Positions 7,494-63,363 of a stretch of DNA of 64,000 nt are shown piece by piece (the stretch's first letter is position 1; each line of letters begins with the position of its first letter). The notes beneath the pieces are model-generated. The model was not told the origin of the DNA. It ran no database searches and saw nothing but the letters and a program-made list of their open reading frames with translations. Source of the stretch: Kappaphycus alvarezii (taxonomy: Eukaryota; Rhodophyta; Florideophyceae; Gigartinales; Solieriaceae); contig NADL03000696.1 in the NCBI GenBank assembly GCA_002205965.3, positions 1,025,501 to 1,089,500 of the forward strand, written 5' to 3'. Made by a program: the position numbers and the translations under genes.

Positions 7494-7650
7494 ATTGTAC
7501 TACTGTACAGTAACGGTATTACTGTACAGCCCACGACTTTAGTGTAGTACAATGGGCAGTCCAACTGTAATCCATCGGCAGAGCAGATTTGGTAATCATT
7601 TTTTGATCTGATTCATTGCTAACCAGCAGGCACTGTACTGTACAGTAAGA
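7494..7650. promoter_or_regulatory. TACTGTAC-type palindrome cluster (orphan)
   Basis: Several copies of TACTGTACAGTA-like palindromes occur here (near 7500, 7527 and 7635). The same motif clusters upstream of several host genes in this window, but no gene is recognised next to this one. It may mark a lost or unrecognised promoter. Confidence 0.3.
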
Positions 7651-14366: not shown

Positions 14367-16824
14367 TCAGCTTTTCGCGTTGGCACATGAAAAGATGTCT
14401 TGGCATCTGGACCAATTCCCGACAGCTTGATGTTTGAAGAATTCACCCCGAAGACGTATTCGTGAGTACCTTCCTGGTCTCCAGGTACCTTTTTGAACCA
14501 TCGCGGCTCCCATTTTACACCTTCGGCGTCCATATCCCGCCGCCTTTGCCTCTGTCCCTCCTCTAAAGCCGTCTTGTAGGAGGATGCTTGCGCATATTCT
14601 CCGTTCTCAAGAGCCCTTTGGTCGGGCCTCAGCCTGCTGTCGGTTGGGGCAACGAATGGCCGTTCCTCATCTCGTACTGGAGCATTCAGGGAGATGGCCC
14701 ATTTCGTCATGTTGTACGATTGAGACGCGTTGTCATCTGGCCGATCAGCAACCCGCCAGATAACATTCTTCTTATTCTTTGGCAGCTGTTCGTAAATGCA
14801 ATCAGTCCAATTTCCGCCAATCTTAATTTTGATGCTCCGCTCGCATCATATATCGTTCCCTTGATTGCTCCAAACGAGCGAGAGTCACTCATCCAGCCGG
14901 TTTTCGCAAAGTTGACTACACATCGACCCCATTGGTCTTATTAACGATTTCCATTTCCCCATAGTTGTCGAGCCACATGGTTCCGATGACGATATTATGA
15001 ACGCAGGAGGTAACTTGCTCCAGAACGTAATGGTCCCCGTACTCTGGAAATTCTATATGGTTCAGGCCTGTCGGAAAAACTTCGAGGCTTTTCCCCAAAA
15101 CTTGTTCTTGATCTCTATGCTGTTGTAGTATTTCCACGAGGCACCAGAGCCCTCAGCATAGCATGCCGATATGGGGGGATGGTGGCTAACTTGCTCTGCC
15201 ACAAATCGAATTCCCTTCCCTTTGTCCGGCATTATAACGCAAGCAGTCTCCCCAAGTAGAGGGTTAAAGGGCTTGCCCATTCTACCCTGCGTAGAGCTGT
15301 AGTGTGAAATAACCATTGCAGCTACGTACATCATACGCCTATTGGGATCTGGCTCCGCAGCTCCTTTGTCCAACAACTCAGAGTACTCAATGTCCTCAGC
15401 AAGGCGCTGCAAGAAGGAGATAGGCTCATTCAACACGATTGGAATGCTAATTTTCGATAAATCCTTGCCAACGGCGTCCTTCAAAATCGAAAACACGTTC
15501 AGAGTCTCTTTTTTGCCAGATATATTTGGCAGTCTTGTCCGCCGTCCTCTGAAGCCCTTCGAAATGATCTTCGTATCTACTCGCTTGACTTCCCCTGCCG
15601 TTAACCTTCTTTCCGAAGAAGTCGCCATATCACCTACTCCCTTCCCGCGATTAAGACCGCGTGCCAGAGATTCCCTTTCATCAAGGGTCTGTTTTTTCGC
15701 AAACGAGGCACGCGAACTTGCCGCACGTGACAATGCATCAAAAAACTCCAAGTCGCTGTCATCATCTTCCTCATCGTCATCAATTTCCCCAACCTTGCTT
15801 GCGAGCCTTGCCGGACTAGTGGGAAACATGGGCAGGCCCTCTGCCATGACTCTCGTCAGATCCGCCTTCATTCTACGCTCAAAGAGTTCATCGTTTGTCT
15901 GTAAAACATGAAGACACCAGGTGACGAGATCGATAAGGCCCTTTGCTGAGGCCTGCACAGGCTGGTCCATGGCGTTGCCTGAGGAATTGCGATCTTTAAA
16001 GGCAGCTGCGACCATTTGCAGAAATTCCGTGTCATCTTCTGGGACGGCGCCAGGCTCTACCCATTTGTGCCTCCAACAAGCCAAGATACGGTGGAGTTCA
16101 GAGAGCAGTGCGGTGCGACTCTGCTCTGCCTCCTTCAATCCGTCGTCCTCAAGGATACTGTCATCACTGTCATCTATAGCATAGACATTGTCGCGCATCG
16201 AGGGGCCATTCGGGGTAGGTGCTTCCAGTCCTTCAGCTGTTACCTGGATATCGTGTGTCGAATGATGATTCGCGGATTGTTTCGCCCTAGACACTGCAGT
16301 CTTGATCAAGCCTCGAAAGTATTCGTTTGAAGCATTCATTGCATCAACCCATTCATCTCTCTCTGCTTCACTCTCGGCACGGATGTGAAAGACATCGGCA
16401 CCAACATCAATGGCAAAGCGAGTTGGATCAGAATCATCGGCAGTAATGACAGCAAATTGCAATGTTATAGAGCCCTTGATATCACGTTCTTTCTCGTCCT
16501 TACTCGTCTGGCGTTTCAAAAAGTGCAACTTTCTACGGACTTTCCTGATCGACTTTGGCTCAACATCTCCAATGGAATCATCGCTGCTATCGCGGTCTAA
16601 ATCATGAGGGCAGCATATGTGAGGACTCCATTCTCCAGGCAGAACTGACGATACTTCCAGCGTTTGAGTACATTTGTATATTTGAGGAGTGTGCCTTGTT
16701 TATGAGGGGCGACACCGACATTAGAAGTTAGAATGTGGAGCTCATCCTTGGGAACGGTGAGCGTGAAGACGGAAGAACTGCCGTTGGAACTGCGACGGCG
16801 GTGAAGGACATTACGTAGACGCAT
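14367..16824 (-). CDS. Oxysterol-binding protein-related protein (PH + ORD)
   Basis: A lipid-transfer protein of about 820 codons, apparently intronless. The N-terminus from the ATG at 16824 is basic. A PH domain follows (about residues 35-150; KQGTLLKYTNVLKRWKYRQF), which in this family binds phosphoinositides at membrane contacts. A long acidic linker precedes the OSBP-related domain, which has FNPLLGET, the family fingerprint EQVSHHPPISA (near 15175-15196), and the C-terminal TDSRLRPDQRALE block. The reading frame changes about five or six times (near 16612, 15097, 14900, 14833 and 14457), and each change is repaired by one extra base, so I read them as sequence deletions rather than introns or true decay. 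A decayed gene remains possible. The stop proposed at 14367-14369 assumes the last frame change. Confidence 0.85.
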
Positions 16825-22782: not shown

Positions 22783-23062
22783 TGTACAGTAGAAGAGGTC
22801 ATTACAGTTGAGCACACTGCTGTAACGCAGACCAGACTTTCTGTAATTATGCACTGTTCCCGTAGTACCCCAGTTCGGCAGAAGTACAGTACTTTGAGCT
22901 AACACTTTGCTGTAATGCAGTTGATACTATCATGTACAGTGTACAGTACAGTACAGTACTACAGTATGCAGTACAGTCAGTCCTGCAGTGTACTGTACGC
23001 TACAGAATGAAGTAAAGTTTCTTTCGTAGTACAGTACTGTACAGTAGAGTACTGTACTACAG
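22783..23062. promoter_or_regulatory. Dense TACTGTAC/GTACAGTAC cluster upstream of the small spliced gene
   Basis: This is one of the densest stretches of the motif, including runs of overlapping GTACAGTACAGTAC near 22940. It starts about 200 bases upstream of the minus-strand ATG at 22576 and ends at the edge of a non-LTR element copy. Confidence 0.4.
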
Positions 23063-33879: not shown

Positions 33880-34610
33880 CACTTACAGTACGACGTTTAG
33901 TGAGCATATACAGTACTGCAAACAATGATACGATATCTACGCTTCGGTACAAATTTACAGGATACCAACCCACATATCCACCACAGTAAATTAACCCCCA
34001 TTTACACAATACTGAGAAGATAATATTCACTCGTTATTTACCTGTTTTGTACAGTACACGGGGGGTGTACAGTATATTTAACGGGGGAAAATTTGGGGTA
34101 ATTTATTATTTGGAATGTACTGTAATGTCATTTCTTGGAGTGAGGCCACATGTTCCAGTAGGGATTGAGGTGAGCAGTGTGTTAGGTTTACTGTACAGTA
34201 CAGGAAAGAAAACTTGGACCTTTATGTACTGTAAAGATTTATTGCACATGAGGCCTGCAAAAAAGACGCAACCCGACAAGGGCTGAACTGGGGAAATTTT
34301 GGGTAATTTATTAACTGGAAAGTACAGTAATTTCATTTCTGAACAACGGATGCCTACTCCAGCAAAGAGGACGAAAGAATATACCCCAAATGAAATCTCG
34401 GCGAGCCGAGAAAACAGGGCTAAAAAACTTCTGGTGTGAGCGATGTGCTTACAGTAAGTGACGACGACAGCGACGAATTCTCGAAGTGAACTATTTTGAG
34501 TAAGAAATGTTGCAGAAGTCTTCTGTGCGGCGGGGTCCAGCTGAAGGGACCGCCAAAGAGAGTAATTACTGTACCGTAGGATTATGTCGTTACAGTGCGT
34601 TACAGTATTA
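33880..34610. promoter_or_regulatory. TACTGTAC-type motif region with a diverged direct repeat
   Basis: The motif recurs at about 33885, 33911, 34050, 34067, 34118, 34191, 34227, 34322 and 34568-34605. A diverged direct repeat of about 55 bases occurs at 34083-34140 and 34290-34340 (shared GGGGAAA-TTT-GGGTAATTTATTA), each copy ending in the motif. No gene was recognised beside it. Confidence 0.35.
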
Positions 34611-38100: not shown

Positions 38101-41100
38101 TGGATTCTGCCTCTTTGAAGATGCAGTTGCAAAATAGTAAAATCGACTTGTATGCATCATTGAGTCAGAATTTAAATCTCCGGACCATCTCGAGGAGAAT
38201 TTATATATTAGGAAAGTTGATCTCGTTCTTGTCTTTCTGCTTCAACAGTTCGAACTATATCGTGCTCTATTCCGTTTTGTATTCTTCTCTGCGCGCAGTT
38301 GTCGATACGTGCTCTTTAATCTTGGCTTATTAATCTTCCATACTAGTTGCTGTAGTAAGAACATGGCCGTTTAAGTACTACCTGAAGTCGTTGCCTGAAA
38401 ACCTATTCACATAATACAGTTTTTAGACTAATATGTATATCTTACGGTAGAAACCCGGTGTTGGAATTAATTGGTGACACACTTGAAAAAGTTTAGTCCA
38501 TGTTCATGTCTACTTTCAAGTTTACTTGGGCTTACTTAGTGTCTTCATAAAGTCTTTTTTCCGAAGTTGACCTGAGTTTGGTGTCCATCGCGAGTCTTCA
38601 TGCGTCTTAGTCAGTAAAAAATTGGTGTATGTCTAGCTTACTGCCTGGGATTCGTCAAAATTATGCCATCAATGGGGTAAATCATTTATTTTTACTGAGC
38701 CACTCCTGTATGTTCCAGATGACAGGGCACTTTCTGCAGTATTAATTTGTGGCCTCAATTACATTCCTTGAGTCCATTTTCCTTCTGAAGGGCGGTGAAA
38801 CTGATTACTTAAGTAATGTAATTTGAGATAGAAAACTCTGGCATCTTCTCGTTAAATGATGCCGTCTTTTTTTCCGCTCCTGCTGTGGCCGGTATTTGCA
38901 GTTCTTATGTTTTGATTTTGGCCTTAGTGCTTGCCTTGATTTCAGCTTAATTGTTTACTACGCCCTTTGATGTCAGAAAAGGAGGTAGCACCGGAGCGAA
39001 CAGTGTTGCTTTCGATTGGTATACGTTCGCTCCCTTGTATATAGATGATTCTCGCGCACTATATGCAGCCTATTTGCTAATGAGGCTGAAAATTAATAGC
39101 TGCTTGCCTGGTTACTCATCTGAATCAAAAATTCCAGTGCTTTGAGCCCATTATGGCTAGGGTGCACAGGAGTTGCCCATTGCTGTACATTATGATACAC
39201 TCTATCATATTTTTTTCTCTATAGAGTAATATGCTGCAAGTTTTTGTTTACATCACATAGCGGTCCGGCGTTTTCTCCGAATCGATCTCCAATGTGCAGT
39301 ATAATTTATATTTGAAGTACCTAAATAAAAATTGGGACCTCGATAGCCGAAAACCTTCCGCGATCTTCCACCTCCTTACGTTGCAACCGAAAGTGCATAC
39401 TCCTCACGCTTAGCGCTATTCAGTTTCCAATCCACCATCACCTCTAAACTGTTCTCTCTTCTGCGCCTCAGAACCATAGTACCCGTACTTTAGCGATTTC
39501 GCTACTGTATCTCCCCTGTCAGAACAATCCTCGCATTATCTTTTCTTTTCAAAACTCCTGCTATTTGATTTGAACAGCAGATCTAGTAACCTCGCTATTC
39601 TTTTTGTTTGTAGACAGCAAAGATAGGTCTGAATACTCACTTTATGGTATATCAAATGTTGATTGATGTATGTTACGTTCTTTGGAACCTTTCTATTCTT
39701 TGGATAAATATCACTAAGAGATCAATATCCACCGCTCGTGGATACGGGAAATAACCATCATATCTTTGCTGATATTATTTTCTTATCATTACAACATTCA
39801 AATGAACAGAGGAAGGGTTGAAGCCGATGGCTATACATTTACTCAAATTTTCGCATATATGGATACGTGAATCTGCCTTTTAGGCTAGTTATTTTACCAA
39901 TATTACATGAATTTGTAGTCTTCTTCTTCTGTTGGCAGTTTTTCCTTGCTGGAGAGCGCTTTTATAATATTACTTCTTGAAATTTATAGTGATTTCGAAA
40001 AGGACAATAGTATTTCGGTTTCGACGAAGAAATGAAATTGAATACCTTGATGACATTAACTAAGAACAAAGTTTAATAAGAAACGTTAGCACGTTAAGAT
40101 GCTAATATGGACTTAAAATACCAAAAAATGCTACATGCTTAGTATGTTATGTAGATCTTCCACAAACTATGGATGATTAAACATTTTTTATGGAAAAAGG
40201 CAAAAAGAACAACTAAAATAACACTTTACAGTTGTTTAGTTCTGTTAAATATTCTTTTGAATGCGGCTCGGCCAGATTCGAGTAGATTAGAAGGCAGATT
40301 ATTTAGCTGTGGTATTGATTGAATAAATGAAGCAGAATATGGATGAACGACAGATGTTGCCGACGATATTATGAACCGCTGCGCAGCTCACTTGAAGCAG
40401 TTTCTTTTTTTGGACCGTATGCAAAATTCTTGATTAAATGAATGAAATATTTTAGAATCTATTTTTTTCGTTATACGAAACGATAAGGGATCAGAAGAAT
40501 TTTATTGTGGATATATAGAAGAAATTAAATCGAAGGGGTGTGTCTTGAATACATTGTGTACCAAGAAAAATAACATAAACGTCCTCTGTCACTCCAAATT
40601 CATCTTAGTAGAAACTAATATTAAAGGCGATGGAAAATTTCCCTATACGTTTATATTCATAAGCTTCTGTGTATTATCTAACATTTATGTGTACGAAATG
40701 AGTAGAAAGGGAATGGGAAAATAAGCGTTTGAAAAATGTAAATGTGCTGTAAAGTTACTCAAATGGTTTGGAGTTATAAGGGGTATGTTGAGAGATGAGT
40801 ATAAGATGGACAATACGATATGAGAAATAGAAAATTCGAAAACCCAACTCGTACCTACAATTTGCTTGAAAATAAAGCTGCAAATAGTGCTACCTTGTAT
40901 AAGGGTGTAGGCATGTAATTTTTTATGATAGACAGAACATATCACTGACTCCGCCTGAGGAGAACTTATTGAAAGTTTTTTTGTCGAATTCAACAAATTT
41001 ATTCATTAAGTATGAATTTAGTGTTGCATTTTTCATGCTCCATGCAAATTGGAGCTATATATGTTTCCTACTTTCCTTCACTTGATTTTTGCCAAGCAGA

Positions 41101-44100
41101 GGCTGGACCAGCGGATGGCAGATGGAACAGAGATATACAATGAAGCTGCAGTTACGGTGGTATTTTTTGTATGAAAACTTTGGTGATATCAAATAGCACT
41201 TTAATAATCAAATCTGACGACGATATTTTGAAATTTTGACAACAAACCAAATAATTTCCCTACCAATGTTGGCAGTCCCCAGGCATTCGGAGGACATACA
41301 AATAATCTCTGACTCGAATAATTTTCATACTTGGAAAGAGCGCAATCGTTCCATAAAGTTTCTAAGCTGATACAGATAGAGTGGCTCTGTACATTTACGA
41401 AGAGCGATTTCTCGGTAAAATAAAGGATTTAAGATCCAAAAACTAGAAGCTTAATGGATCAGGCAGGGCAAAAAAATATCCAAGACGCTGAATAAGTTTT
41501 TTGTGTGTGGACTGAGCGATTAAGCACGAATAAACCTGAATTACTGCCAATAGGCTGAAGATAAATATGAAACAAAGAATAAAAGCAGTATTATTGTCAA
41601 GTATCGATTTTGCCGAATGGAAATCAATTTTGCAATAGTCTACGAAAAGAATATTCGAATCTGGATTATGTATTCCATTTCAGTAAAGGTTTTCGGGAGG
41701 TAGTAAATTTTTGTTCTCCATGTGTTCCCTCGAGAAATTCTTTATCTCAGGAAACCTTTTTACTTCCTACTTGTCTGTATTTTTTCCCAGCTCATTCCAT
41801 TCTTGTACTAACGTTATGAGGTTGGAAACGGTCCCGTAGTTACAAGTGATACCAAACCATTTACCCCTAAAATGATATTTAGGCTCCCAGGCTTCCCTTT
41901 TGATCTAATAAAGCAATATAATCACGCATTAAAATGATAAAAGTCTGTAATTTGGAACAAGATATAAAACTTTGATACGCGCAAACCATTGAAACACCTT
42001 GTAGAATTGATGTGTCCTCAACAATCGATCAAGATGGTCACTACGTAAAATTACCGTAGTCATAAAGTAATGCTAGGGACGTGATAATTACTTCGTATAG
42101 TTTCGCGAAAATATTCCAAATACACTCTATTTCTATCACATAATAAATACATTTTATCACCTTACTTACTTTGAAAAGTCTGACGGCCTTTTCCTCGTGC
42201 TTGGGATGAAGCATTCTCATAATTCATTTCTTCGTATCTTCAAAGAATGCCTCACTATATTCTATCAAAAATGATCACGTAAAATCACACCAGATTGAAG
42301 AATAGTGACAAAGATTTGATTGAATGGAATTGAGTCCATTTTTTATATTTTTCATTTGGATATTTTATGAGAACCTTGCTTTAAATGTAGATACTTTCCC
42401 ACAAAAATATTTACTACATTCAATCAAATGTATTTATTCTCATTATATGTATTCAAACTTCATCAGTCTTTGCCTTATCCGCTCGTACTGTATCTATTTA
42501 CCAATATATTTATTTAATTTATTCGATCTATAACGCCTTAAACCTATCAAGATACATATAACAGAATTAAAAACTAGTGAAGCGAGATGTACCCCTTGTA
42601 AGTATCCAATGGACACAAGAATGTAAAGATTGGTCTAATATGACTATAAACAACATTATATGGAAGGTTGTAAAACATATAGTAACGCCTTCATCCGTTT
42701 ACTTCAGAATTCCAGAAATACACGTCCAAATGGCTTTCCGATCAGAACTCATTTTTGATAGAACGTGAAAAAAGCGATTTACGGTTTCGAGAATGCTTCC
42801 TAAATACTACTATCCCCGAGCGAGAATTTTCAATTATCGTCAGCGATACTGGAAAGATTATAAAATTTATCGAGAGCGTAAACAAGACATGATCTAGAGG
42901 CTGTAACAGGATAAAAAGTGAAAAAGTGAAAACTATGTAGCCCCCTTCTATTAATTAGCTGTTAAATTACCTGTATATGGCAAAACGTCATTTTTTCAAT
43001 ACCTGTATTACTCAGAGAAGAACTCTCAACATTGAACTCCACTTAGAATTTTACAAGAAAAATGATCTTTAGTAAATATAGAAGATACCAAATTTTAATT
43101 AGTTTATACGAGAACTCCGTCACCCAGATCCTTTCGAGTATTTTTCCTCGCAGAGCCCATTGCAAAGAGCTCTTCTTATTACACAGAATCAATGCAAGGG
43201 AAGACATTGCATTAAAATTTATGGTTACTACTTGAATTTAAACTCATAGATTCAATATCTCCATGCTTTTTTGGAACTTTTATTTGTTTTTCGACACTTA
43301 ATTATGAATTATGGAATGATAAACCCAATTTTAAAGTTTAGAGTACATTCCTTACAAAGCATTGGACATAAATACACAAATTCAGGTCTTCTAATACAAA
43401 AAAAAATAGATTCACCCCCTTTTACGGGAAAATTTCTTCCTTATTCATATTTGAAGAGATGATACATATAAGTTTAGTTCTAAACACGGACGAAACTAAG
43501 GAAGAAAAGAAAATAGTTCTTAGATTATTCTGCTAAAACCGTGTTGAATGGTTTACGCCGAGCGATTTGAAACAAAGTTTCCGGAAGATGAAGGATTTAT
43601 TTCCAGAATCTATCAGCAATTTATAGTTATCCACCTATAACTCTTCAAATCCTAATCGAAATTCGAAACAAAGGTTGGTAGACTGGAAAGCTTCGACTTC
43701 ATCATACATTTTCACTAGACATGATTCATATTACACTAAGTCAGTTTCATATTTAGGGGACAAGTCAAAAATATTCAGTAGCTTTGTTATTCAAGCTTAA
43801 TGTGTCTCTTTTCCGTTCAGAAGACTGCACATGTGGTTTTATCTAGATTTTGTCTTACTCTTCCAGTCTTTTTCGCATTAATCAAACATTAGGCATTTTA
43901 ACCTAGGACTCCGTTTTAAGTGCTTGAGAAGAAGAGAAATCTGAACTTTAGGACTCGATCTAGTTAAACTCTTTCACAAGCTGCACCTAGTTGTATGAGA
44001 TATTTGCCATTTATGAATTCCTCTACATCAGGAACAGCTTACCTCGAGATAATCTGCTGCTGTATTTCTACACATTTTTATGATCGTTACCAATGAATCC

Positions 44101-47100
44101 GTCCAATATTGGGTGTTCTGTCGACTTTTTTGAGATTTCAACTATTATTAATAATGGTGGGATAAATACTAACTGTCTGAATCTGTTAATTTATATCATC
44201 TTGAGTGGAAAAATATGGACTTAGAATTACCATTTTACGTAAATTGAAGTTTGAAATGTTGTTTTAAATATCCCGTTTGGGAGGAAAATCCCTTTCGTTG
44301 ATTCCATGTGTACCTCTACCTCTAAGTGCTTTCATCATACTATCCGATATTGATAAACATGACGAGGATAATCAGCTTCTAGCTGACTTCTACTCAATCA
44401 AACCATTTTTATCAATTTTATGGCGGCAAGTTACTGTTTTAATCCTTCAATGTATGTGCGCCAACTAATTCTTAATCTTTTCGTGGCGTTTAGGAAATTT
44501 TCCCGTTTCTGTAATATAAAGTGGAGTTACAAAACGATTACTGATATTCATCCGACTTTTGTGGATATATATATGCCTAAGTCATGGGTCATATCATTTT
44601 ATTTTGGTCTTTCTATTGTTCTATGGCAAAGCTGTGGTGTATAGAGCTACTTTTTCTGCCCCCAATGCCTATTATTTTTCCTCAAAACTTCTATATACTT
44701 TTCTCTGTTGAGTATTATTATATCTATTATTATATCTATTTTTGTATCTTTTCTAATTTTTAGCCCTATCTTGTTACTTTGGTTCGATTAATATGAGTTT
44801 TTCTAATATATTACTGATAATTTGATGCCTTTCATATTTATTAGTGCATTTTCACACCATCTGTACTCGAACGAATAAGCAAGGTCTGATGATGAGCTAT
44901 GGGATTATTTCTTGGTATTTGAAGCTACGGAAGTTCTCAGATAAATATAAGAGATAAGAATATTCATCTTTACAAATGCTTAATTTCCAAAATTTTATCT
45001 TTTATTTCGTTCTCTGTTCACCTTGATGCTTAAGCACAGAATCCACCCAGACCTTGAGAGTACAAATGATACATTGTCAATTCAGGAAAATCCAGTCGAA
45101 GTGCAATCTAATTTATATCAACGCGCAGAAAACGCGTTATTCGCTCTCTTAATCCCTTGATTTTCGAAATGTTTTGTTGAGTCGAATAAATTCCAGGTTG
45201 TAAAAATATTAAAAAATCATAGCGCATTGAAATTGAATTTGAATTTTTATCCATCTTTTTTATTGTTTTCTTTTTGAAATAATCATCTCGGGATAAATTG
45301 AAATAATTCCGATCAAAACTTGTTTTAAGCTAATTCGAAATACAAAGAGATACGTATTGTCATAAAAAAGCAAAAGTGAGTCGTGTGAACCAATGCGCCA
45401 AATTTCCAGTTTCTGTTGGGCTGTTCTATTCTCTAATTTCTTCACCAAGTTAGGACATGTTTTTTCGAGGCTAGCTCACCAGCATACTCAAGTAATTAAA
45501 TGCAAACCAGGAATGTAAAAGTAATTAGGCGAATATTTTTCTGTAGGAAATTGCCTTTAACCTTGGTTTATAGCTTCAATAAACCCAAAGAAGACGTATA
45601 AAGAATTATATAAACGTATCGCAGCATCATAGATGGTAAAGAGCAAATGAAGTATCGACTAGACAGTGGCGCAACTCAGAGCGGTTCTGATTGGTTTCAG
45701 ATTCGGATCAGTATAAACTCATGCTGTCGCAGACCTTTATTTTTTCTTTGAGATAAAATGGATGTGATATTGCTCTAGGGTATAATGTATAATGATATAT
45801 TAGGACAGAGGAACAGTGAAAGGGGAACAGCCCAGAAATTTAAATGTCCTTGAACGCGAAGGGGGGCTAAATTGATGGAAAGTTACTCCTATTGCAACTA
45901 ACTTGCGGTAACTGTCTTTTTATGGCGTATAAATACCGTCCCAAATACTTTTCATGGTGACCTTATACGCACATACTACTTACCCGTTTCGACACTTTAG
46001 ATCTTTTCTGTACCTCTGAACTCTCAACCCTTATTTTCAAATGCAATACTTTTTATTTGATACAATTATTCCAGCTATACACTGTAATGCGCTTTAAACT
46101 GTCGATCGGTGAGCAGAATTCCTGGCACCAGTTTGGAAAACCTCTGGAACGCGCACAACTGTAAAAGTAATTATCCTAAAATTCCTTTCTGTAATATTTC
46201 TCTTCGATATTCTTTCATCACTCTAAAATGCCAAGAAAGCACAAATTAACTGGAACTTTTTGGAAGTCAGGAGAATAGTATAATGTACCAGCCCCTTTGT
46301 TCTATTTTTTGAAAAGTTCCTTCAAATTGGTTATATTTTCATTGGTTGATATTTTAGGAAACAATACAATCACGTGACGTGCCTCCGTTTGTTTCAAATC
46401 TGCTTCAGACGTAATTTGCATTCTTTAGATTTTTATTTAAGATTGAATGACTGTCAATATCAGACCTTTTCATTTGCACGAGTAATTTCTATTTGTGAGA
46501 ATTAAAATTCAATTGAAATTCTGATATCTGTCTATTATCTTTGAATTACATCAGATTTATCTAAATTGAAATTTTTTATTAAAAGCCTAACAGACTTCTT
46601 TACGCTTACTACAATCAGGTCTTAAAACTATAACTCGACGATCAATGGACTTAATCCTTCTGGAGGGTAGTATTCTTCCAAAAAAATCATTTACTCCGAA
46701 AGTTGACAAATTTAAATGAAATTCCTTCACAGTAGTTTTACATTCTATGTGTTTCTGGAGTACGATTTATGCAGATCAATATCTTGATGAAGAAAATAAG
46801 TTTGAAATTTTTCTGGATAAAATAAACTATTTTTCAGAACTGTATCTATTAATCTATTCAATTTATACATAATGATTCATTGCCTAAATATTCTTGAAGA
46901 GGTGTAAAATATAATTAAGACCATTTTTCAAGCCTGGTCAAGCGAAAATTTCAGCACGTCGGTTAATTATTCGCTTGACTCAGTTATTCTTTTGTAAGCC
47001 CATTTTCACTCCAAGTTCTGTCCGCTTACCAAAAATGCGTGATTTATACATTCTATTTTCCATAGTGATGATGGCGTGTTCCATCCATTAATGAAACCTC

Positions 47101-50100
47101 CCGGACATAATCATCCCTAACATGTCACAACGTAACGATATACTATGCTTAATATATGGATCACTTTAGCGGATCAAACTGCACTTCTGAAGAATTTATG
47201 AAATAAAAATATGTTAATTTATCTCAATCAGTACATTTCCCTCTCGAAACAATTGATTAATTTAGTTACATTAAATCACCCGGAAAACTTTTTGCTCAAT
47301 TCTAATCGCGCTATTGAATCCAAACTAAACTACATTAGTGGCTGATTTTTTTCATTTACAGCGGTAAAGAATTTTTGAAAGCCAACTGATAGGCTTCGGA
47401 AATTGTTAAGTATTATGCATGCGGAAAGTATGATCGAGCCCCAGAATTGCATTCCGTCCCTTAAAATATAAATATCTATATCGCCTGATAAGTCATAAAT
47501 GGTAACTTGAATCAGCGGAAAATTTTACTTTATCTTTGCATGAATTCAGAAGATTATGATGCCGTGTTTGGCTCAAAAGATTAAATTGATTCCCTGCGTC
47601 AGCAGTAAAGACAGAAATGGGTGAACTAGAGCAATAAATGTTTATTATATCTCTAAATTCATAGAAACTTTCTTTGAGATATACCAATAATAAAATTAAT
47701 AGCTTAATAATTGTACTCCTAACTGAATAAATAAGTATATTATGCCTTACAAAAATTCAGTAATTAAACTGCAATTAATTTATAAGTTAAAAATTGTAAG
47801 GAAGTATCTTTACTGACGCCTTTTACATATATGCAACTACGCCTGGAAAACACCTTAATTCCTTGCGTACTTCCTGATAGCATTTTACCCTTTCATCCAG
47901 CAGTATCCCTTGCCCTGTATCCCAGCCTATCCCAAACCATGCATCGTAGGCTGTTGTGAGGAGGCAACTTATTTAGATTTCTTTCAACGACCAATGCCCA
48001 TATTTTCAGTCGCTGAAGTGTTTTCTTCGATATTTAAAGGGTTCTGTTCGTTCTTTAAGGGAGGGGGTGGTGTTGCTCAACCAGGATATTAGCTGCTTCA
48101 GCTAAGTTGTGAAGGTAATTCAGGCTGGACCGAATATTAATAGGATGGGAAACTGTTGAAGGGGGAAATGGTGCAGTTTCTATCCATTTCCATGTGCACT
48201 TTATCCATCAAATTACAAATAAGCCGAGAATTTTAAACATTTTAAAAATATAGCGGTTTGATTGCAGTTTTTACCGCACTAAATCGTCAAAATTCTGCAA
48301 TTTCGCTCAAAAATATTGCAGAATTATCCAATGATTATTTTACAGTATTTCAATCATATTTTTCCAGTCTGGATTCATTTTGGTTTCACAATCTTTCGAT
48401 TAAAAGTAATCATATTTATTCAATTGCGAGCTATAAATTTTAATTTAAAGCTTCACTCATACATATCTGAATATTTCTGGCTAAAAATGCGTAATAGCCA
48501 TATTATATCAATAATATTTGGCAGTGTGGCATAATCATATTGGCTTAAATCACTATTGATTCCTCTATTTTAAATTATTTTGGGTTGTGGCTACCTAGAT
48601 ATTATTTAACCATATTGGTTTTTATCTCTCAATAGGGCTGGTAAAAGAACCCAGGGAAAGTTCAATCTCTCTTTCCTGTCCTTTACACCAGAAATTACCT
48701 AAAAATATACATTGAAAAGCTTCATGTCGACAATAGACTAACACTGGTTTCTTTTTCGCTTTAATTCAAGATATCAATGATTTTCATCCTCTGAAATTTA
48801 AATCTTTACAAAATGTGCCTCAAGCTACTGCAAAAGGGTACTTTCCAATACCTTTTGTTATTAACTGCAAAATGCTATCATCGACGCCACTCCTTTTGTA
48901 TATGTATTTCGCTCTCTATATTTTATTTTAATCGGCTCCACTTCTGTTTAACACAATAGAAAATGATCGGAGATCATAAAGCACTCATTTAACATCAATG
49001 ATATGAAATACTTGGTTTGATGGCTAAAAATCAAAAAATCAGCAAATGAATCCATTTTTCGGAAAAATGTTCATTCCTACAATTCAGACAAATTTTTTAA
49101 TTGAGATATGTCCTTCTCTTATAATTTAGCACCAAACCTGTGGGTACAACTGCTTCATCCGAACAGTAGAGGTAATTAGTTGTCTGTTGCGTTTACATTG
49201 GTTGCTTTCAGTAATGAACATCTTCACCTCATAGTTCTTATCTTTCAATCTCACCTCTACAATGTGGGTAACATTTCAAAAGGTATAAAATTAAAGGACA
49301 GCTCTGAACTTATTTGTAACTTTCTAAACGGTTCCCTAAACTGAGCGAAAGTTGTAATGGCGTTTATGGTGATTAAGCCGAAACTTTGGATTTCCTCTAT
49401 CATTTACGACATTTCAATCACTAGATAGAACGAAGCAGTGTTTAAATCCATTTAAACCTCTAATTTAGCTTCAGAACACGAACGCAATCTATTGGGAGCC
49501 CAAAAGCTTTTGAATTTCTCGTTACCACCGATCAATTCAGCTTAAGACTTCAAATAATTTTATTCCCGTAGATTCCCGTCAGTGGCATCATTCAAAGCCA
49601 ATCAATGCACTGGAAATAAAAAATAGTCTACATCCTGCTACATAATCATAGTTCTGATCCATAATTTTTTGCTGGGTACTTTTATGATCATGCGTGTGAT
49701 GAGTCCTGATATAGAGAGGATAAATAATTTTAAACTGTCTCATATATGTTGTTGGAAAGAATAAAAATGGACTCTAAAGGATCAAAAGCACAGGAATAGA
49801 GACCTAAAATTTACATAGAACATAATTTTAGATAAGATGTTGGAAAAATCTTCATTCCTGAAAGTTTGGAAATAATTGACATAACCAGATGCCATAGTCC
49901 TAAGAGCCGTCATTCTTCTCTCGAAGAAGACTGTATACAGATCACATCAACAAAGATGCTACCTGATGTTCAAGTCAGGTCATCTCTATACTAATTGCCT
50001 AAACCAAAAGTCGCAAACACTTTAAAGTCCCTGTTTCTCCTAGTAAAATCTTTTCTCAGATCAAGTTAAAAGCTTAAAACCGCTCATATCCTAAATATGT

Positions 50101-51420
50101 CAGTAAATTTGGCGCTTTTGTAAATATGAGAAAGGCAAATATGTCATAAATTGCTTCCCTTCCATGAATTGGAATGGTTTATTATATCTCAGGGAAGACA
50201 GTTATTTTTTAGAGCGGGTAGCTCGGCAAATTGACAGTGAGATTTTTATCACTTTTATATTTTTCTGAGTATTTGAAGATATCATCAGAGGTAAATATGC
50301 AAGGTTTAATATTTCGAAGGGCTAAATTTAGGAATTTTGCCCAATTGCAGATAAATGTGCGCACTATTTTGTATTCATCAATCTTTTAAAGTACCGTTCA
50401 GTTCTAACATGAAATATGAAGATTTAGAGGATTTAATTCATGCCATAAATATAAGAAAAACTTTTCTAAAGAAAATTTATTACACATTATTTTTAGATGC
50501 AACTGTGATTTTTGAGTTGAAAAGGTATGTTTGCAGCACTCGCCTACATGACATTACTTTTATGTGCTGAAAATGCCATCGTGGCCATTAAAATAGAAAC
50601 ACGGTACAGAGACGTGTCGGACACACGACAATCTTGGTTTGATTTTTACATGTACAATACTACTGAATAATTAGAAATCCACGCAGGGATACAGGCAGAA
50701 ATTTTGTCATATTTCTTTTATGAACAATCCCATTGAACTAATTTAAATAAATTGGGCTATTCTTTATATATTTATCCTTCGTTTTAAGACTTGATCCAGG
50801 AGGCAACTGTACTTTTCCGCTTGAAACTGCCCCATGAAGGGTTTTTCGTGAGTATAATGGTTCTATATAAATCTTAATTACGCCTTCGAACTTTTCAGTG
50901 ACGTCTTTTTACGAAAGACCAGTTTTCCTTTTTCCCTTTTTGAAAACTTTACCTCGAAATTCTTCCCCTTTATGAACACCCTACTCACTTTTTATCTCCA
51001 TTTTTATTTTATATCAAAATATTTTGGTTATCACTTTTTGAAAGAAACTTTTCAATTTGTGATAAGCTCTTCCTCTAAAATTACTTCCATCATAATTTCT
51101 TGTAGATATTTAGGTAATGACCACAGATTGGAGCACATCTAAGACGACAGTACGGCCTCTCACTTTTATGCAAACATGGCCGTGAAAACTATAGATTGCA
51201 TGCGCCAATTTTAAACCTCAGTAGCAGCTTCGTGAATTATCATCCCTTCTATCAAGCAGCTCGTGAGCTAATCTGCACACCCCCTTAGTTATCTATCAAG
51301 ATGGTCAACCTCAGCTCCTCCTGCATTATTAAAAAATCAATCAGGGCCCCGGCCTGCATCATCGGCCTGTATTTGATGGCTAGTGATCCTACAGACTAAA
51401 AGAATACCTCAAGAGGTTAC
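35150..51420. other. About 16 kb AT-rich block without recognisable genes
   Basis: Base composition drops sharply to roughly one third G+C or less by eye, and stays there. ORFs are short and scattered on both strands with no family resemblance; the longest, 37267-37674, has a hydrophobic C-terminus but no recognised motif. I see no transposon protein, tRNA, rRNA, tandem array or CRISPR-like repeat in it. Only trivial repeats occur, such as a duplicated TATTATTATATCT near 44710. Confidence 0.6.
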
Positions 51421-56630: not shown

Positions 56631-57839
56631 TCAAACGGCGCCACCCTTTGCACCCAGGCCGAAAATGTCGGGAAGATTATCCGGCCAGCCATTTTGCTTG
56701 GATTGAAAGTAGTTGAAACGGTACATCCATTCCCTCCTGCCGGTGCTCGGGTCGAGCTTAAGTTCAAACCAGCGCGGGGAATACGCGATGCCATTCTGCT
56801 CGCATTCTCTCCTTCTGAGCCTCTGGTCGACCTCGAGCCTCTCCTTTTCACTGCTTGCCAATTGATAAAAGCCCCTTTCCCAGGCCCTCTGATCCGGGCG
56901 CAGCCTAGAGTCTGTCCTGGGGAGGTTGGATCCGCCGTCTGCATTCAAGGCCCATGCCCAGTTGGTCATGTTATGATTGGCGGTGAGGTGCTTGGACGGG
57001 CGCGACATGACGGTCCAGACGACGCGGTTATCGATACGCACTTGGGTGTTCCAGTTTCCGGTGAGTTTCCGGTGCACGTTTCCCTTTTCAGAGGCGGCCG
57101 TGGCGCATACCTTTCCGACAAAGTCCCGTGATGTTTCGGGTCGCCAAAGAAGGAGGCGGCGCGCTTGAGCTTTAGGGTGGTGATGTATGCGTTGTGGGTG
57201 ACTTCGCGAATGGTGATGGTACCGACGTTGTCGATCCAGATATCGCCGATGACGATGTTGTGGACAAAGGTGTGTGCTTGTTCATAGACGTAATGTTCGC
57301 CATCGTCAAAGCGGATATGAACGGGCCGGCCGGCCAGACCTCCATGGAGTTGCCTCTGAATTTGTTTTTGATTTCATGTGCGGTGTGATAGGTCCAGTGT
57401 GGAGCGGTGACATGAATGGCGCTCGTGGGGGATGGTGGGCGACCTGTTCAGCGACGAGGGAGAGTTTGTTTGGGAGATGCATTTCAAAGGTTTCGCCGAG
57501 GAGAGGGTTGAAAGGTTTTGAGGGACGACCTGCGGTGGCGGAGTAGTGAGAGATGACAAAGGCGGCGACGAGGGCGGCGCGATGGGGCCCGGAGGCTTTG
57601 TATGCTTGGTCGAGGAGGTGACTGTACTCGACATCCTCTGATAACCGTTGGAGGAAGGAGAGGGGCTCGTTGAAGAGGACGGGGAGGGTGATGCGGGCGA
57701 GGTCCTTGCCGATGGAATGCTTGAGGATGGACCAAAGGTTTGGTTTCTGAGGGGGACGGTTGCGGGAGGGTTTAAGATGGAGGGTGGTCTGGTTGGGAGG
57801 GGGTAGGTTGGATAGGATATGACGTTCATCGGAGGGCAT
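56631..57839 (-). CDS. Short oxysterol-binding protein-related protein (ORD only)
   Basis: About 400 codons from the ATG at 57839, comparable to Osh4/Kes1-type or plant short ORPs, which exchange sterol and PI4P between membranes. After a short N-terminus it has LWSILKHSIGKDLARITLPV, FLQRLSEDVEYS, KPFNPLLGET and the fingerprint EQVAHHPP (near 57430-57450). A VYEQAHTFVHNIVIGDIWID block and the C-terminal PRTDSRLRPDQRAWE with PRWF follow. No PH domain. Three frame changes (near 57430, 57325 and 57090) are each repaired by one extra base and two lie in C-runs, so they look like sequence deletions. It is a paralogue of the longer ORP at 14367-16824. Confidence 0.85.
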
Positions 57840-57910
57840 GTTGAAATGTTGAAAGCGGAGGAGGAGGGCGGGGGTAGGGGACGGAGGCAGGGGAATGGGA
57901 ATGTATGGGA

Positions 57911-57923
57911 GGGGGGGGGGGGG
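57911..57923. repeat. G13 homopolymer upstream of short ORP
   Basis: A run of 13 G lies about 75 bases upstream of the ATG at 57839. Its length is uncertain if the consensus has homopolymer errors. Confidence 0.8.
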
Positions 57924-58057
57924 TTTGAGTGTTGTTGTTGTGATTGTATGGGCGGGCGGCAGAGCGAGAGTTGAATGAACGAGTGTGGTGGATATTGAGT
58001 TGAGGTGAAGGTGCCTTGCCTTGTTCCCAGGGAGCTCCCTGGTCGTAGACACACATT

Positions 58058-58559: not shown

Positions 58560-59163
58560 TTATACTGTACAGTAAAGTACAGTAGTGTGGAAAGCCGCTC
58601 CACTTTGCCCGTTGTTGCATCGCAAATGGTGAGGGGGTACGCACGGTAAGCGCCGTCAAGCATGTGGGCTGTTTGTGGACAAGCTTGTTGAGGGGTAGTG
58701 GCATGAGGGGTCGGGGGTTTTCGGAAAGGCCGTTTTCGTGCAGTGCATTACTGTGCATGGAGAGTGGCGAGTTTGGAAAAAAGATTACAGTTGTGTAGAT
58801 GGCAACACTTTGGTGGCATACGTGTCCAGCAATTTGTCCCTCATTTGCATGGAACTGTACCCTTGGCATGGAGATTGCAACTGCGGCAAAGTAGTGCTAC
58901 TGTACGGAACGGTGGTGGTTTGGGTGGCAATGGCGTATGCCAATCGGCGGCTAGGTAGCGGCAGGAATATCCACACGACAGTGCACGGCAGCCATTTAGA
59001 ATATTTGTAATAATTTCTTAGTGGCGAGACGGTGTCCAAGGCGGTAGAGTACAGTACAGTATTGTACAGTACAGTACTGTACTGTATATGTGGTGACAAA
59101 AGGCATATGAAAATGGCGGCATGGGTTGCTGCGCGCACCTTTTGACGTACAGTAGTGTACAGT
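58560..59163. promoter_or_regulatory. TACTGTAC-type clusters between short ORP and the Hc1-like gene
   Basis: Clusters at 58562-58586, 59049-59095 and 59146-59163. They are over 1 kb upstream of the Hc1-like ATG, so assignment to that gene is uncertain. Confidence 0.35.
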
Positions 59164-59169
59164 GATTTG

Positions 59170-60367
59170 CAGACAAACGCGACAAGGGTCAGGGTTGGGG
59201 GGGGGGTGGGCGCGAATTAAAAATGAAAGGAAATGGTCCGCGGGGCAGGTACGGTAGGGCCGTAGAAAATCGGACAGGTTCCAACAAATCTCGCATGCAG
59301 TCTTTTTTTTTGTATCTTGAAAAAAAAGCGGCGGGCAGCCTATCACAGTTCCTAGGTGGCACCAACGAGACAGCGCGGAAACGGGCAACTGACGAGGCGC
59401 CCAAAAGTGCAACATGGAAATTCCAAACGGCATCCGGTGGAAAAGTAAAAGAAAACAGGATAGCGTGCCAGAAATATTGGAAAATTAGAAACTGTGCGGA
59501 AAGAAAAAGGGCGCGCTTTTGCAGCAAGAAAAAAGGTGCAGTGTGGGCCATATGGACAGGGTGGGATGGAATTGGACATTTTTAGTTGCAGGGGAAAGTA
59601 AAAAACCGTGGAATATGGGCGGGATGAGGAAGAATGTGGACCTATTGGGAAATTGGCGGGAGTTGGAAAAAGGAAAAAGCATGGAATAATGTGAAAATAG
59701 ATATTTTGAAAGGGCATACAGGATGAAATGGACCGATAGGGTGTGGGATTGGACGATGGGACCAGAGTGATGTTGTTGACGGCGTGGATTGTGTGGAAAG
59801 GGCGAGGCGAGGCGAGGCGGCAGAGCGGGCGGGGCAGAAATTTTTGGTATATACATGCATGGCATGGTGTTTGACGGCAGTCGTCGCCATCGCCCTCCCG
59901 CCCTGTTTGCCCAGCCACCCACCTGCGTCTTGTAGAAACACAGCCACTGTTGTTGTTGACCGGATTGCAATTATTTTTTATTTATTGTGTGTATTTGGCG
60001 GCCCTGTTTGGAAGCCGTTTGACAAACACCCCTCCTTCCGCACCTTTTTCGCTACTGTCAAAGGCGCCCCGCCCCGCCCCATCGCCACCACCCTCCCTGC
60101 CGCCATCCTCTTTTTTTGCTTTTTCCACTCAAAATAACCAACAAGCTCCCTCTACTCACCCGCCTCGTACTGTGTACTCCTCAACCCCCTCTCAACGCAT
60201 CAATTTCTCCATCTCGTTCCAAACCCCTCTCAACTCCCTCCATTCCCACTCCATCCATCCATCCATCCATCCATCCACACTGCATCCTTCCCATCCTTCA
60301 ACCCTATCCCTGCCCCTAGCCGTACCCTACCCCTCCACCCCCCACCACAGTCACTCACCAACCCACA
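59170..60367 (+). promoter_or_regulatory. Upstream region of the Hc1-like gene
   Basis: No convincing ORF. It has a GGCGA triplicate at 59801-59820, pyrimidine-rich stretches from 60040, and a CCAT microsatellite of six units at 60251-60276. This is probably a promoter and 5' untranslated leader. Confidence 0.35.
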
Positions 60368-60562
60368 ATGGACAAGCTCCAAAACCTCAAGGAAGTCATG
60401 GACGCCGTCTCAAAGGACAGCACAAAGTTTTTCGAAAAAGGAAACAAGGCCGCCGGCACCCGCGCTCGCAAGAATCTACAAGAGCTGAAAAAACTAGCTC
60501 AGGAACTTCGTGTCGCCATTCAAGAGACAAAGGCCAATATGACCAACACCGTCGCAGAGTAA
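60368..60562 (+). CDS. Hc1-like (bacterial histone H1-type) small basic protein
   Basis: Complete 64-codon intronless ORF starting MDKLQNLKEVMDAVSKDSTK. It matches the Hc1/histone-H1-like family over its whole length: an amphipathic N-terminal helix, the hallmark GNKAAGTRARKNLQELKKLA (residues 25-44) and a second helix ending in AIQETKAN. The family is known from Chlamydiae (Hc1) and Bacteroidetes, where such proteins bind and compact DNA. Here it has no Lys/Ala-rich tail. It sits between a eukaryotic ORP gene and mL46, so simple bacterial contamination is unlikely. A long CT-rich leader precedes it and an AATAAA lies near 60913. The role (chromatin, organelle nucleoid or other) is unknown. 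No targeting peptide is obvious. Confidence 0.8.
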   Translation: MDKLQNLKEVMDAVSKDSTKFFEKGNKAAGTRARKNLQELKKLAQELRVAIQETKANMTNTVAE

Positions 60563-61124
60563 TCCACCCAGCCTCTCCCTCCCCCTGTGACTCCCTGCAC
60601 AGTCACGAGATTTGGCCCCATCTACCGCCGAATCCCGCTTCACCTCTGCTATAAAACTCTCTGCCAGGCCCACTTGAACCACCGTGCAGGTTGTCCTCCT
60701 CCCTTTCATCCCCGTGGTGATGTGTGAATTGTCCCTTGTCATGTCGTGTCTTTCTGCTCTCAACACTGCGAAAAATACAAAAAAAACAAAAAAAATCAAG
60801 CAATGCTTTCCTGGGTTGGTAGCTGTCGCCATGGCCCTCCTTGTATCCAACTCTCCTACCCTGCCTCTATCGCTCCTGCCGTTTGTGTCTTCCCACTTGC
60901 CCTCGACCTATCAATAAAACACAAACACCTACGACTGCTTGCTCCATCCCCGCTCTCGCTCTCGCTCACCACTCCCCTCGTACCCATGCCTCAAAAGTCC
61001 TGACAATCCTATGCCACACACGCTCGCTGCAAACCCGCTCTTCCACAACTCACACCACACAATCCCCCGCTTCACCACCAAACTCAAAACATATCGGCAA
61101 CTTGAACCCCTACACAACTCCCAC

Positions 61125-62090
61125 TTACACTACACCAAATACCACTCCCCAGCCTTTATTCTTGCGCATATCCTGCGTCAACACTATGAAAAACGATACC
61201 ACATCATCCCATCGCGTCTGCATCCTTTGCACCACCATCCCCCACATCCATACCCCCAACAACACCGCCTCCACAGCCGTGTACACCTCGTCCCCAACCG
61301 CCGTTCTCAGCTCGCATTTACGCGCCCACATCCAATCCACGCAGTTTCTCACCCCGCCCAATTCCCCTTGCACCCACATCCCACGGTAGAAGAATATCTT
61401 CACTCCATACACGTCGTGTTTGGTCTGATACCGTACCGGGTATACATGCTCTAGATGGCACGATGGGCTATTGCACACAAAATGAATCTGCGGTCTCGTC
61501 GCCGCCTCTGTTACACCTTTATACGCGCGCTCTGCATACTCCACCATGGATATGTCCTCGTCTGACACCAGCACCTGTGGGAATTGAAAGTGCGTCGCGC
61601 TGTCACTGCGTTTCACCACCAGGTACAACCGTTCATCCAACGCCCGTTCCAAACTCTTCACATCATTCCTTTCATCTGCCTCTGTATCACGTGAAGCCGG
61701 CGTATACATCTCTGCGTAAGCATCTTCAAACGTCGGCTGCGTCTTGCCCTCGACGATATCCTTTTCCGATAGAAACATCTCGGCTGGTAACGCACGTGCA
61801 TTGCGTTGACGCGCGAGGAAGCGGTCCGTCAGGTACTGTCGTTCAAATGGGTGCAGTTGAGGCGTGATTAAAGGGTAACGTTCTATGATGGCGGCACTGG
61901 CTAGACGCCATGCATTGGTGAATGATGAGGCGGGGTCTGCGGGCTGGCTTGCGAGACGTTGCACCTTTTGCTTGAGTTTGCGGAGCACATTGCGGCGTAC
62001 TATGTTGTGACGGGCGGCATAGGTGCGGTGGGGGGCGCAACGGGTGGCGGAAAGGCGATGGAGAATGGGCTGGAGAGTTGGTGGGGGCAT
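61125..62090 (-). CDS. MRPL46: Mitochondrial large-subunit ribosomal protein mL46
   Basis: The ORF is open from 62288, but the ATG at 62090 gives a typical basic, Ser/Arg-rich mitochondrial presequence (about residues 1-50). Family blocks follow: AAIIERYPLITPQLHPFE (66-83), a FLSEKDI segment near 106, and the Nudix-like fold with ERLYLVVKR (143-151), FQFPQVLV and YAERAYKGV. IHFVCNSPSCHLE (182-194), KIFFYRGMW and VDWMWARKCELR (221-232) come next. About 240 residues match; homologues usually end shortly after the EVYTAVEAVL helix, whereas this frame runs on for about 80 residues, so a lost base near 61295 and an earlier stop are likely. The protein is part of the mitoribosome central protuberance region. 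Divergent from the SDR gene, 353 bases apart. Confidence 0.85.
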   Translation of the reverse strand: MPPPTLQPILHRLSATRCAPHRTYAARHNIVRRNVLRKLKQKVQRLASQPADPASSFTNAWRLASAAIIERYPLITPQLHPFERQYLTDRFLARQRNARALPAEMFLSEKDIVEGKTQPTFEDAYAEMYTPASRDTEADERNDVKSLERALDERLYLVVKRSDSATHFQFPQVLVSDEDISMVEYAERAYKGVTEAATRPQIHFVCNSPSCHLEHVYPVRYQTKHDVYGVKIFFYRGMWVQGELGGVRNCVDWMWARKCELRTAVGDEVYTAVEAVLLGVWMWGMVVQRMQTRWDDVVSFFIVLTQDMRKNKGWGVVFGVV

Positions 62091-62443
62091 TGGATTTTGG
62101 CGAGGGATGGCTGCGGACTCTTGTGGGGGTGGAGTGGGGCGGATCGAATGAAACGCCCGACCTTGATCAAGGAAGGGCGGGATCGGCGCGCGGTGGCGAT
62201 GGCGATGGCGGTGATCCAAAGGTTTATTTACAGTGTAAAGGGCCTTGCAACAAGTATTGCAGCAGATCAAAGCAGCCAACGTAGTCATCCGCTAGCTAGG
62301 GCAGCATCTTTGCATCAACACCTCAAACAATACCGCTTATAAACTAACCTCTTCAGACCCCCTCCCATCCCTCCACTCCCCCATCATCCTCCTCTCCACC
62401 ACCACCAATCCACCCATCCATCCATTCATACACCCCACCTCCA

Positions 62444-63363
62444 ATGGCCACACTCATCATCATCGGCGGCACCGGCGAACTCGGCCGCAAGACTGTCCAA
62501 GCCGCTCAATCGACCGACCATTCCGGCTGGTCGGCCAACATCATTGCCACCTACCACAACAATCCCCCCCTCACTACCACTCCCGCGTCACATGGACCCC
62601 GCTAGACTGCTCCGATCAAAAGGCAGTTCGCTCTCTCATCGCCTCCCAAACCGCCCTCGGCGCCGTCATCTACTGCGCCGTCCCAAAACACGGCGGCGCC
62701 GCAGGAAAGGGCGGTGACTCGGTCCGCATCGGTATTGTCGATGATGTCGTCAATTGTGCAGAAGCTAGTGTTATGGTCGGTGCGCGTTTTGTCGCCGTCT
62801 CCACCGATTTGGTCTATGATGGTCAACTGCCTCTCGGTCAGCGCTATGTCGAGGATAGCATTCCCTCCCCGCTGAATGCATACGGAAAATACAAGGTCGA
62901 GATGGAACAGCGTCTGGGTCGATTGAGTGGCGGTGTCGTCATTGCTAGAACGAGCTTGATTTTGACCATGGATAAGGGCCCCGATTATGGAAAGGGTGTC
63001 AGGTTCGTCGTGGATTGTCTACAAGGAAAGCATGGTGAAATTGAGATTTTCACAGATGAGTTGAGAAATATGTCGTTTGCCGATGATCTCGGCTTGGCGT
63101 TGGTGGAACTGGCCAAAAAGGACTGCGCGTTTAAGGGCGGGGTCATCAATTTGGTCAGTGACGAGGTAACAACAAGGTGGGAGCTGACAAAAAGGGTGGC
63201 CGTAAAGTTAGGACTCGAAGACAAGCTAGGCGGGATCGTCAAGAGCGGGCTCAGTGCCGAAAGCGGGCTCAACCGCCCGTTGAACTGCGCCCTGTCGACC
63301 GAGCTGAGAAATCGCGTCCTCAAGACCAATATCCGCGGTCTCAGCGAGAGACTGCCTCTGTAG
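62444..63363 (+). CDS. RmlD-like / MAT2B-like NAD(P)-dependent short-chain reductase
   Basis: Extended SDR protein of about 306 codons. The N-terminus MATLIIIGGTGELG carries the Rossmann glycine motif (GGTGELG, 8-14). STDLVYDG marks the active-site Ser/Thr strand, and NAYGKYKVEMEQ holds the catalytic YxxxK. VIARTSLIL and a C-terminal substrate-side region follow (ELRNMSFADDLGLALVELAK, GGVINLVSD). This is the layout of dTDP-4-dehydrorhamnose reductase and the related MAT2 beta subunit; the substrate cannot be told. The frame changes once, at a run of seven C (62564-62570), and one more C restores it, so a consensus error is likely. Divergent from mL46. Confidence 0.8.

Follow-up and report, generated by a model that had tools for sequence, protein, structure and literature searches.

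A three-gene family of Hc1 proteins in the nuclear genome of the red alga Kappaphycus alvarezii

The genome of the red alga Kappaphycus alvarezii carries three genes of the Hc1 family (PF07432), each in two diverged copies, and one of them lies in the window analysed here, a stretch of 64,000 nucleotides (C692:1025501-1089500, on a 1.14 Mb contig). The first-pass annotation of this DNA reported one Hc1 gene; searches of the whole assembly (336 Mb, 884 contigs), both with the protein and with the Hc1 profile (E <= 1), gave three genes at six loci. Judged by its sequence and surroundings, the window gene is a genuine nuclear gene of a eukaryotic alga, and the analysis suggests that the alga acquired a microbial gene and has retained it. 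The protein itself is a plain member of its family; what is unusual is its host, together with its place in a three-gene, intron-bearing, conserved nuclear family. We consider it probable, if well short of certain, that this family goes back to an old transfer from bacteria or phage, was subsequently kept under selection, and encodes a helical hairpin that serves as a small nucleic-acid-binding protein.

Among the openly available papers listed by literature searches, none was seen to report Hc1 in a eukaryote; eukaryotic members may already be deposited in protein databases. In the literature searched, the accession 'PF07432' led to one paper, on phages (PMC12619734), the accessible text of which places Hc1, of the same Pfam family, in four complete genomes of jumbo 'moraphages' and calls its function unknown. 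There the gene is phage-borne, whereas here it is eukaryotic and nuclear, and that text describes no eukaryotic Hc1. The sole mention of Hc1 in the accessible part of PMC4989314 is a table row on a chlamydia relative, and the 'HC1' of a Plasmodium calpain is, as far as the available portion of its source goes, an unrelated label. A conserved set of three nuclear Hc1 genes in an alga would demonstrate that a prokaryotic nucleoid-protein domain can be acquired and retained by eukaryotes, even though they have nucleosomes. It would also offer a tractable route to the role of the bare Hc1 domain, free of the chlamydial tail, which is pertinent to hundreds of bacterial and viral proteins.

The open reading frame of the window gene, from its ATG at 60368 to the stop codon ending at 60562 (+), specifies the 64-residue product MDKLQNLKEVMDAVSKDSTKFFEKGNKAAGTRARKNLQELKKLAQELRVAIQETKANMTNTVAE. 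The Pfam Hc1 profile aligned with residues 1-56 of this protein over profile positions 1-56 of 57, with a score of 77.5 bits against a cut-off of 23.5 (E 6.8e-22), and the second-best Pfam family reached E 0.058; the match is far beyond chance, and it bears out the earlier proposal that the whole protein is of Hc1 type. Four conserved residues of the family, G25, R32, R34 and R48 (window numbering), are present in the window protein and in both paralogues. Chlamydial HctA is defined by a lysine-rich, DNA-binding C-terminal tail. Likeness to it is found in the N-terminal Hc1 domain region, where positions 5-50 of the HctA model (NCBIfam NF051889) were matched; the two differ in length (64 residues against a 121-position model) and in the lysine-rich C-terminal half, which the window protein lacks, ending instead in NMTNTVAE. 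With the HctA model reaching 20.1 bits where its cut-off is 100, and the tail missing, neither the link to Chlamydiae drawn in the first-pass annotation nor a chlamydial origin is supported.

Because the lysine-rich tail is absent, 'histone' is a weak label for the window protein. Its net charge (K+R minus D+E) is about +4, that of paralogue 2 is -2 and that of paralogue 3 is +2, and a value of +2 was obtained for the three relatives counted; charges this modest are unlike those of a histone. With the eukaryotic linker histone H1 (PF00538) it has the name alone in common: H1 is a different Pfam family, is not among the Pfam matches of the window protein, and is encoded separately in this genome (two matches, at C651 and C848, beside 26 matches to the histone family PF00125); moreover, the AlphaFold2 model of the window protein is a two-helix hairpin, not a winged helix.

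Table 1. Features of the window Hc1 gene and its surroundings (positions are those of the window).
Feature	Position	Strand	Basis
Hc1 coding sequence of 64 aa without introns, first of the three paralogues	60368..60562	+	Pfam Hc1 E 6.8e-22, full profile
Predicted helix 1, residues 3-24	60374..60439	+	AlphaFold2
Family signature GNKAAGTRARK, residues 25-35	60440..60472	+	R32, R34 in 142/142 aligned sequences
Predicted helix 2, residues 27-63, with stripe R34-Q38-K41-Q45-R48-Q52-K55	60446..60556	+	AlphaFold2 and alignment
CT-rich leader, presumed 5' UTR, with (TCCA)7 array at 60250-60277	60140..60367	+	Sequence and tandem repeat
AATAAA, possible polyadenylation signal	60913..60918	+	Sequence only
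Left neighbour: oxysterol-binding-protein-related gene, pieces in different frames	56631..58052	-	Pfam Oxysterol_BP 2.9e-43, 2.5e-26
Right neighbour: mitochondrial ribosomal protein mL46	61125..62288	-	Pfam MRP-L46 7.8e-06, 27 bits, cut-off 21.9
Next right: RmlD-type NAD-dependent reductase	62296..63363	+	Pfam RmlD_sub_bind 4.1e-23 and 1e-19

The two copies of each Hc1 gene are 87-96% identical over long aligned pieces, as would be alleles or homeologues. The window gene recurs on a second, diverged contig (C476) with matching flanks; the two copies differ by five synonymous changes and no amino-acid change, their proteins being identical, and the three 300-base blocks 5' of the ATG are 92.0, 85.8 and 90.9% identical between them (nearest first, ungapped). 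The copies of paralogue 2 are separated by two synonymous changes and one amino-acid change, at residue 65, beyond the domain. Paralogue 3 has a modelled GT-AG intron within the Hc1 domain, at ...FDKG^NKAAG..., and when its copies were compared the intron aligned with 31 gap columns and the exons without any. In the exons, an alignment counted by eye yielded four synonymous changes and two amino-acid changes, both close to the N terminus and not in the domain (translation from an upstream in-frame ATG would add a third). Over the three copy pairs this amounts to 11 synonymous and three amino-acid changes, with none of the three inside the domain. Two of the three paralogues bear terminal extensions, that at the N terminus of paralogue 3 being about 24 residues long, or 31 from the upstream in-frame ATG. 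By alignment, the window copy and paralogue 2 begin at the start point of the bacterial proteins and carry no presequence.

The window gene lies between eukaryotic genes (Table 1). Pfam searches upheld the reading of its flanks as a sterol-transfer protein gene and mL46, and the CT-rich leader and microsatellite noted earlier are there as well, the former visible in the sequence and the latter a (TCCA)7 array. An AATAAA also follows the stop codon of paralogue 3. GC3 is 0.625 in the Hc1 gene, 0.61 and 0.63 in the two right-hand neighbours, and 0.55 and 0.50 in two other genes of the window; of three relatives, the two bacterial ones have 0.84 and 0.68, and the one on viral contig L013 has 0.11. 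The GC3 of the gene fits that of its neighbours, but this is weak evidence either way.

Relatives of the window protein were found in bacteria and viruses. Hc1 relatives occurred in 146 of 167 genomes of Fibrobacterota (the phylum of a Chitinispirillales MAG) and in 237 of the 395 genomes drawn from Bacteroidota (the phylum of Pelobium). Chitinispirillales MAGs matched at 65% identity over residues 1-55, at 82% over residues 22-55, and at 66-67% over residues 8-59 and 7-59; among the matches listed from the 167 Fibrobacterota and 395 Bacteroidota genomes, the top identity over most of the domain was 67%. This is too low to mark any of them as a close donor, so the transfer would be old or its donor unsampled. 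The Hc1 profile matched two of 14 control genomes (Bacteroides ihuae and Methanosarcina acetivorans), one of them over the cut-off, and it had no match in the control cyanobacterium or the control alphaproteobacterium, so nothing here points to descent from plastid or mitochondrion. A scan of all genome contigs, in which exact 8-residue matches were required, confirmed relatives at eight of 159 stretches; under that same requirement, none of the eight was a chlamydial locus.

A scan of viral contigs with the single window protein confirmed 34 relatives among 72 candidate stretches, the best of them at 64% on the 429 kb contig L013, where phage genes adjoin Hc1, and a scan with an alignment found at least 503 relatives among at least 600 candidate stretches. 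When paralogue 2 served as the query of a viral scan, 15 stretches fitted the pattern and none was confirmed as a relative. Among 50,697 phage records four matched at E <= 0.01, including a 462 kb record at 63.6%. The window protein shares a GNKAAGTRxRK core, the invariant R32, R34 and R48, and the same start with the short Hc1 proteins encoded by Bacteroidota, Fibrobacterota and viral contigs, and at 64 residues it falls within their length range (55-69 residues in 139 distinct proteins, with start codons chosen by script). There are also differences: the algal gene is nuclear, exists as two diverged copies with a eukaryotic-looking leader and 3' end, and its protein is at most 67% identical to theirs over most of the domain; and the alga has three paralogues, one with an intron and two with terminal extensions.

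All 175 of the bacterial and viral loci fetched yielded sequence, representing 139 distinct proteins, which together with the three algal proteins gave a large tree of 142 rows and 59 columns, for which the program warned of long branches. In this tree the three algal proteins lay on one side of a weakly supported branch (79/74) and were loosely grouped with four viral rows on long branches (87/77); 24 Fibrobacterota rows formed a clade of their own (100/100), apart from the algal proteins; and the principal group, made up of 73 viral and five Bacteroidota rows (95/80), included L013 and excluded the algal proteins. In the best version of a smaller tree of 53 selected rows, the algal proteins did not form one clade; neither a constraint that made them one (p-AU 0.349) nor one that united them with Fibrobacterota (p-AU 0.31) was rejected. 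Since the small tree does not unite the algal copies, there may have been repeated transfers into the algal lineage, and the two trees neither single out Fibrobacterota as the donor nor dismiss them.

AlphaFold2 predicted the window protein to be a helical hairpin with high confidence (mean pLDDT 93.2, pTM 0.70), consistent with the two helices expected by the first-pass annotation. R32, R34 and R48 were invariant in 142 of 142 sequences, which had been collected for their similarity to the window protein, and within the same set Q38, K41 and Q45 were conserved at 95% or more, K55 at 90% and Q52 at 85%. On a 100-degree helical wheel, R34, Q38, K41, Q45, R48, Q52 and K55 share one face of helix 2, with R32 off that face. 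The structure alignment comprised the window protein and 52 of 53 diversity-filtered proteins, L051 being left out for want of coordinates. Of the 142 Foldseek matches to solved structures, where generic hairpins alone were found, none reached E <= 0.001, nor did any of the 294 matches in a viral structure library. The top row of the viral library was a Klosneuvirus KNV1 protein of 131 residues (BFVD A0A1V0SJN2; TM 0.84, 32% identity, E 0.019), which may represent Hc1 in a virus that infects eukaryotes.

Genes adjoining the bacterial and viral relatives gave mixed indications. We ran 17 of 30 neighbour families against Pfam or PHROGs by a named representative (11 of 15 viral and 6 of 15 bacterial), and one more via a close member. 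Seven of the 11 viral families run had no match, and two of the largest, present at 39 and 38 loci, were of no clear function, the 39-locus one being cytidylyltransferase-like. Of 109 viral loci, 30 (22 distinct Hc1 proteins) had a member of a DNA polymerase B family near Hc1 and 22 (20 distinct Hc1 proteins) a member of a UvsX family, both as raw counts. These replication genes give a weak hint toward DNA, weak because the counts are uncontrolled and the largest family is the cytidylyltransferase-like one. Bacterial Hc1 genes adjoined an ABC transporter in Fibrobacterota and MFS, bPH and cytidine deaminase genes in Bacteroidota, neighbours that give no pointer to DNA packing. A ribonucleotide reductase gene was seen within about 3.5 kb of Hc1 at L013, L102 and L121, three of seven viral loci partly scanned.

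We propose that the algal lineage received Hc1 long ago from bacteria or bacteriophage, this being the direction of transfer that we infer, and that the gene then diverged into three and gained eukaryotic gene structure. The excess of synonymous over amino-acid changes between copies (11 against three) would reflect retention under selection against amino-acid change. A basic-polar stripe has been kept beside a hydrophobic face, in keeping with a short hairpin that would self-associate while the Arg/Lys/Gln stripe of helix 2 touches nucleic acid at its phosphate backbone. The protein would then act as a small accessory nucleic-acid binder in the nucleus or cytosol, beside nucleosomes and H1; as the window copy has no presequence, either of these locations is more probable for it than an organelle. 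A bolder version, to which we give rather little credence, holds that the alga domesticated a bacterial or phage nucleoid-protein family for its own chromatin or RNA handling, as a second, non-eukaryotic layer of DNA packaging.

Other accounts of these genes compete with transfer and retention at different points. The most sceptical holds that the window gene is bacterial DNA in an algal contig, through contamination or chimeric assembly, and it draws on the likeness of the protein to bacterial ones and on frame breaks in two genes, on account of which the assembly may hold errors. It fails because the gene stands on two diverged contigs with matching flanks, a paralogue bears an intron, and eukaryotic genes lie at either side; in addition, no bacterial match among those listed from the 167 and 395 genomes exceeds 67% over most of the domain. 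We rejected this account as having next to no chance of being right. What stands of the transferred gene put forward by the first-pass annotation is an Hc1-family gene within a eukaryotic nuclear genome, the relatives found being bacterial or viral; its chlamydial connection is not supported. A different question is whether the gene came from a DNA virus, a huge phage or giant virus, and not directly from a bacterium. The 64% match on L013 and the 63.6% match in the 462 kb phage record are among the closest single matches, Hc1 is frequent in viral contigs, and a Klosneuvirus protein heads the viral fold list; against this, the neighbours on L013 are phage genes and the hosts of phages are bacteria, not algae, the large tree puts L013 in a group without the algal copies, and the E-value of the Klosneuvirus match falls short of significance. 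We regard a viral source as unlikely.

Two further accounts accept the capture and differ from ours over what the protein does. The algal protein might be a captured hairpin oligomerisation module that binds no nucleic acid, inherited the name histone from chlamydial Hc1, and plays an unrelated protein-protein role in the alga. A protein without the lysine-rich tail, of charge near neutral (negative in paralogue 2, +2 in three relatives), for which structure search yields generic hairpins and whose bacterial counterparts have neighbours unrelated to DNA packing, is what this account would expect; it is harder to reconcile with the three arginines found throughout the 142 sequences collected for similarity to the window protein, with the stripe along one face of helix 2, and with the replication genes near some viral Hc1 copies. 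We hold it to be the lesser possibility, one still to be reckoned with. That the protein serves an organelle nucleoid, in plastid or mitochondrion, as the first-pass annotation suggested, seems to us quite improbable: the host has light-harvesting genes and paralogue 3 has an N-terminal extension, but the window copy and paralogue 2 start where the bacterial proteins do, and the extension of paralogue 3 contains acidic residues, which, judged from its sequence, would be unusual for a transit peptide.

Other genes of the host were characterised alongside. The light-harvesting family PF00504 had 22 matches in the genome, pieces and copies counted, and we examined two of the proteins. For one, a Galdieria sulphuraria chain was the best match at 211 bits, followed by the next at 186; for the other, 9vfj, Porphyridium 7y5e and Galdieria chains were nearly equal (181.7, 180.4 and 180.2). 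The accessible text of PMC12083527 assigns 9KC5 to Galdieria and 7Y5E to Porphyridium purpureum. Both algal proteins seem to begin with a simple transit peptide and to have no signal peptide, which is the arrangement seen with a primary plastid. PF04082 had no match in the algal genome and none in the 14 control genomes. A search with uL3 returned top chains close together in score, which we take to be plant, yeast and alveolate. The uL3 gene itself (C627:697781-698834) and the oxysterol-binding gene to the left of Hc1 (56631-58052, -) both show abrupt frame changes and continue in neighbouring frames; these breaks may be assembly indels or mark decayed copies. About 40 kb from this oxysterol-binding gene, at 15065-16699 (-), is another of its kind, which includes a PH domain.

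Elsewhere in the window, a retroelement at 1767-4409 (+) comprises an aspartyl protease (weak, below cut-off), a reverse transcriptase (RVT_1, 2.1e-22) and an RNase H (RT_RNaseH, 1.4e-35) in adjacent open reading frames. A block at 39000-51000 is AT-rich, with 33-36% GC per 2 kb as compared to 37-60% elsewhere; no open reading frames of at least 200 codons were found between 34.7 and 56.4 kb, nor repeats of at least 60 bases between 34 and 53 kb. Finally, the near-palindrome TACTGTACAG has 12 matches on both strands at seven places in the window, including 7501-7647, 23035-23046, 34189-34200 and 58563-58574, where shuffled sequences lead one to expect 0.04, and arrays of the related GTACA unit lie at 59044-59086.
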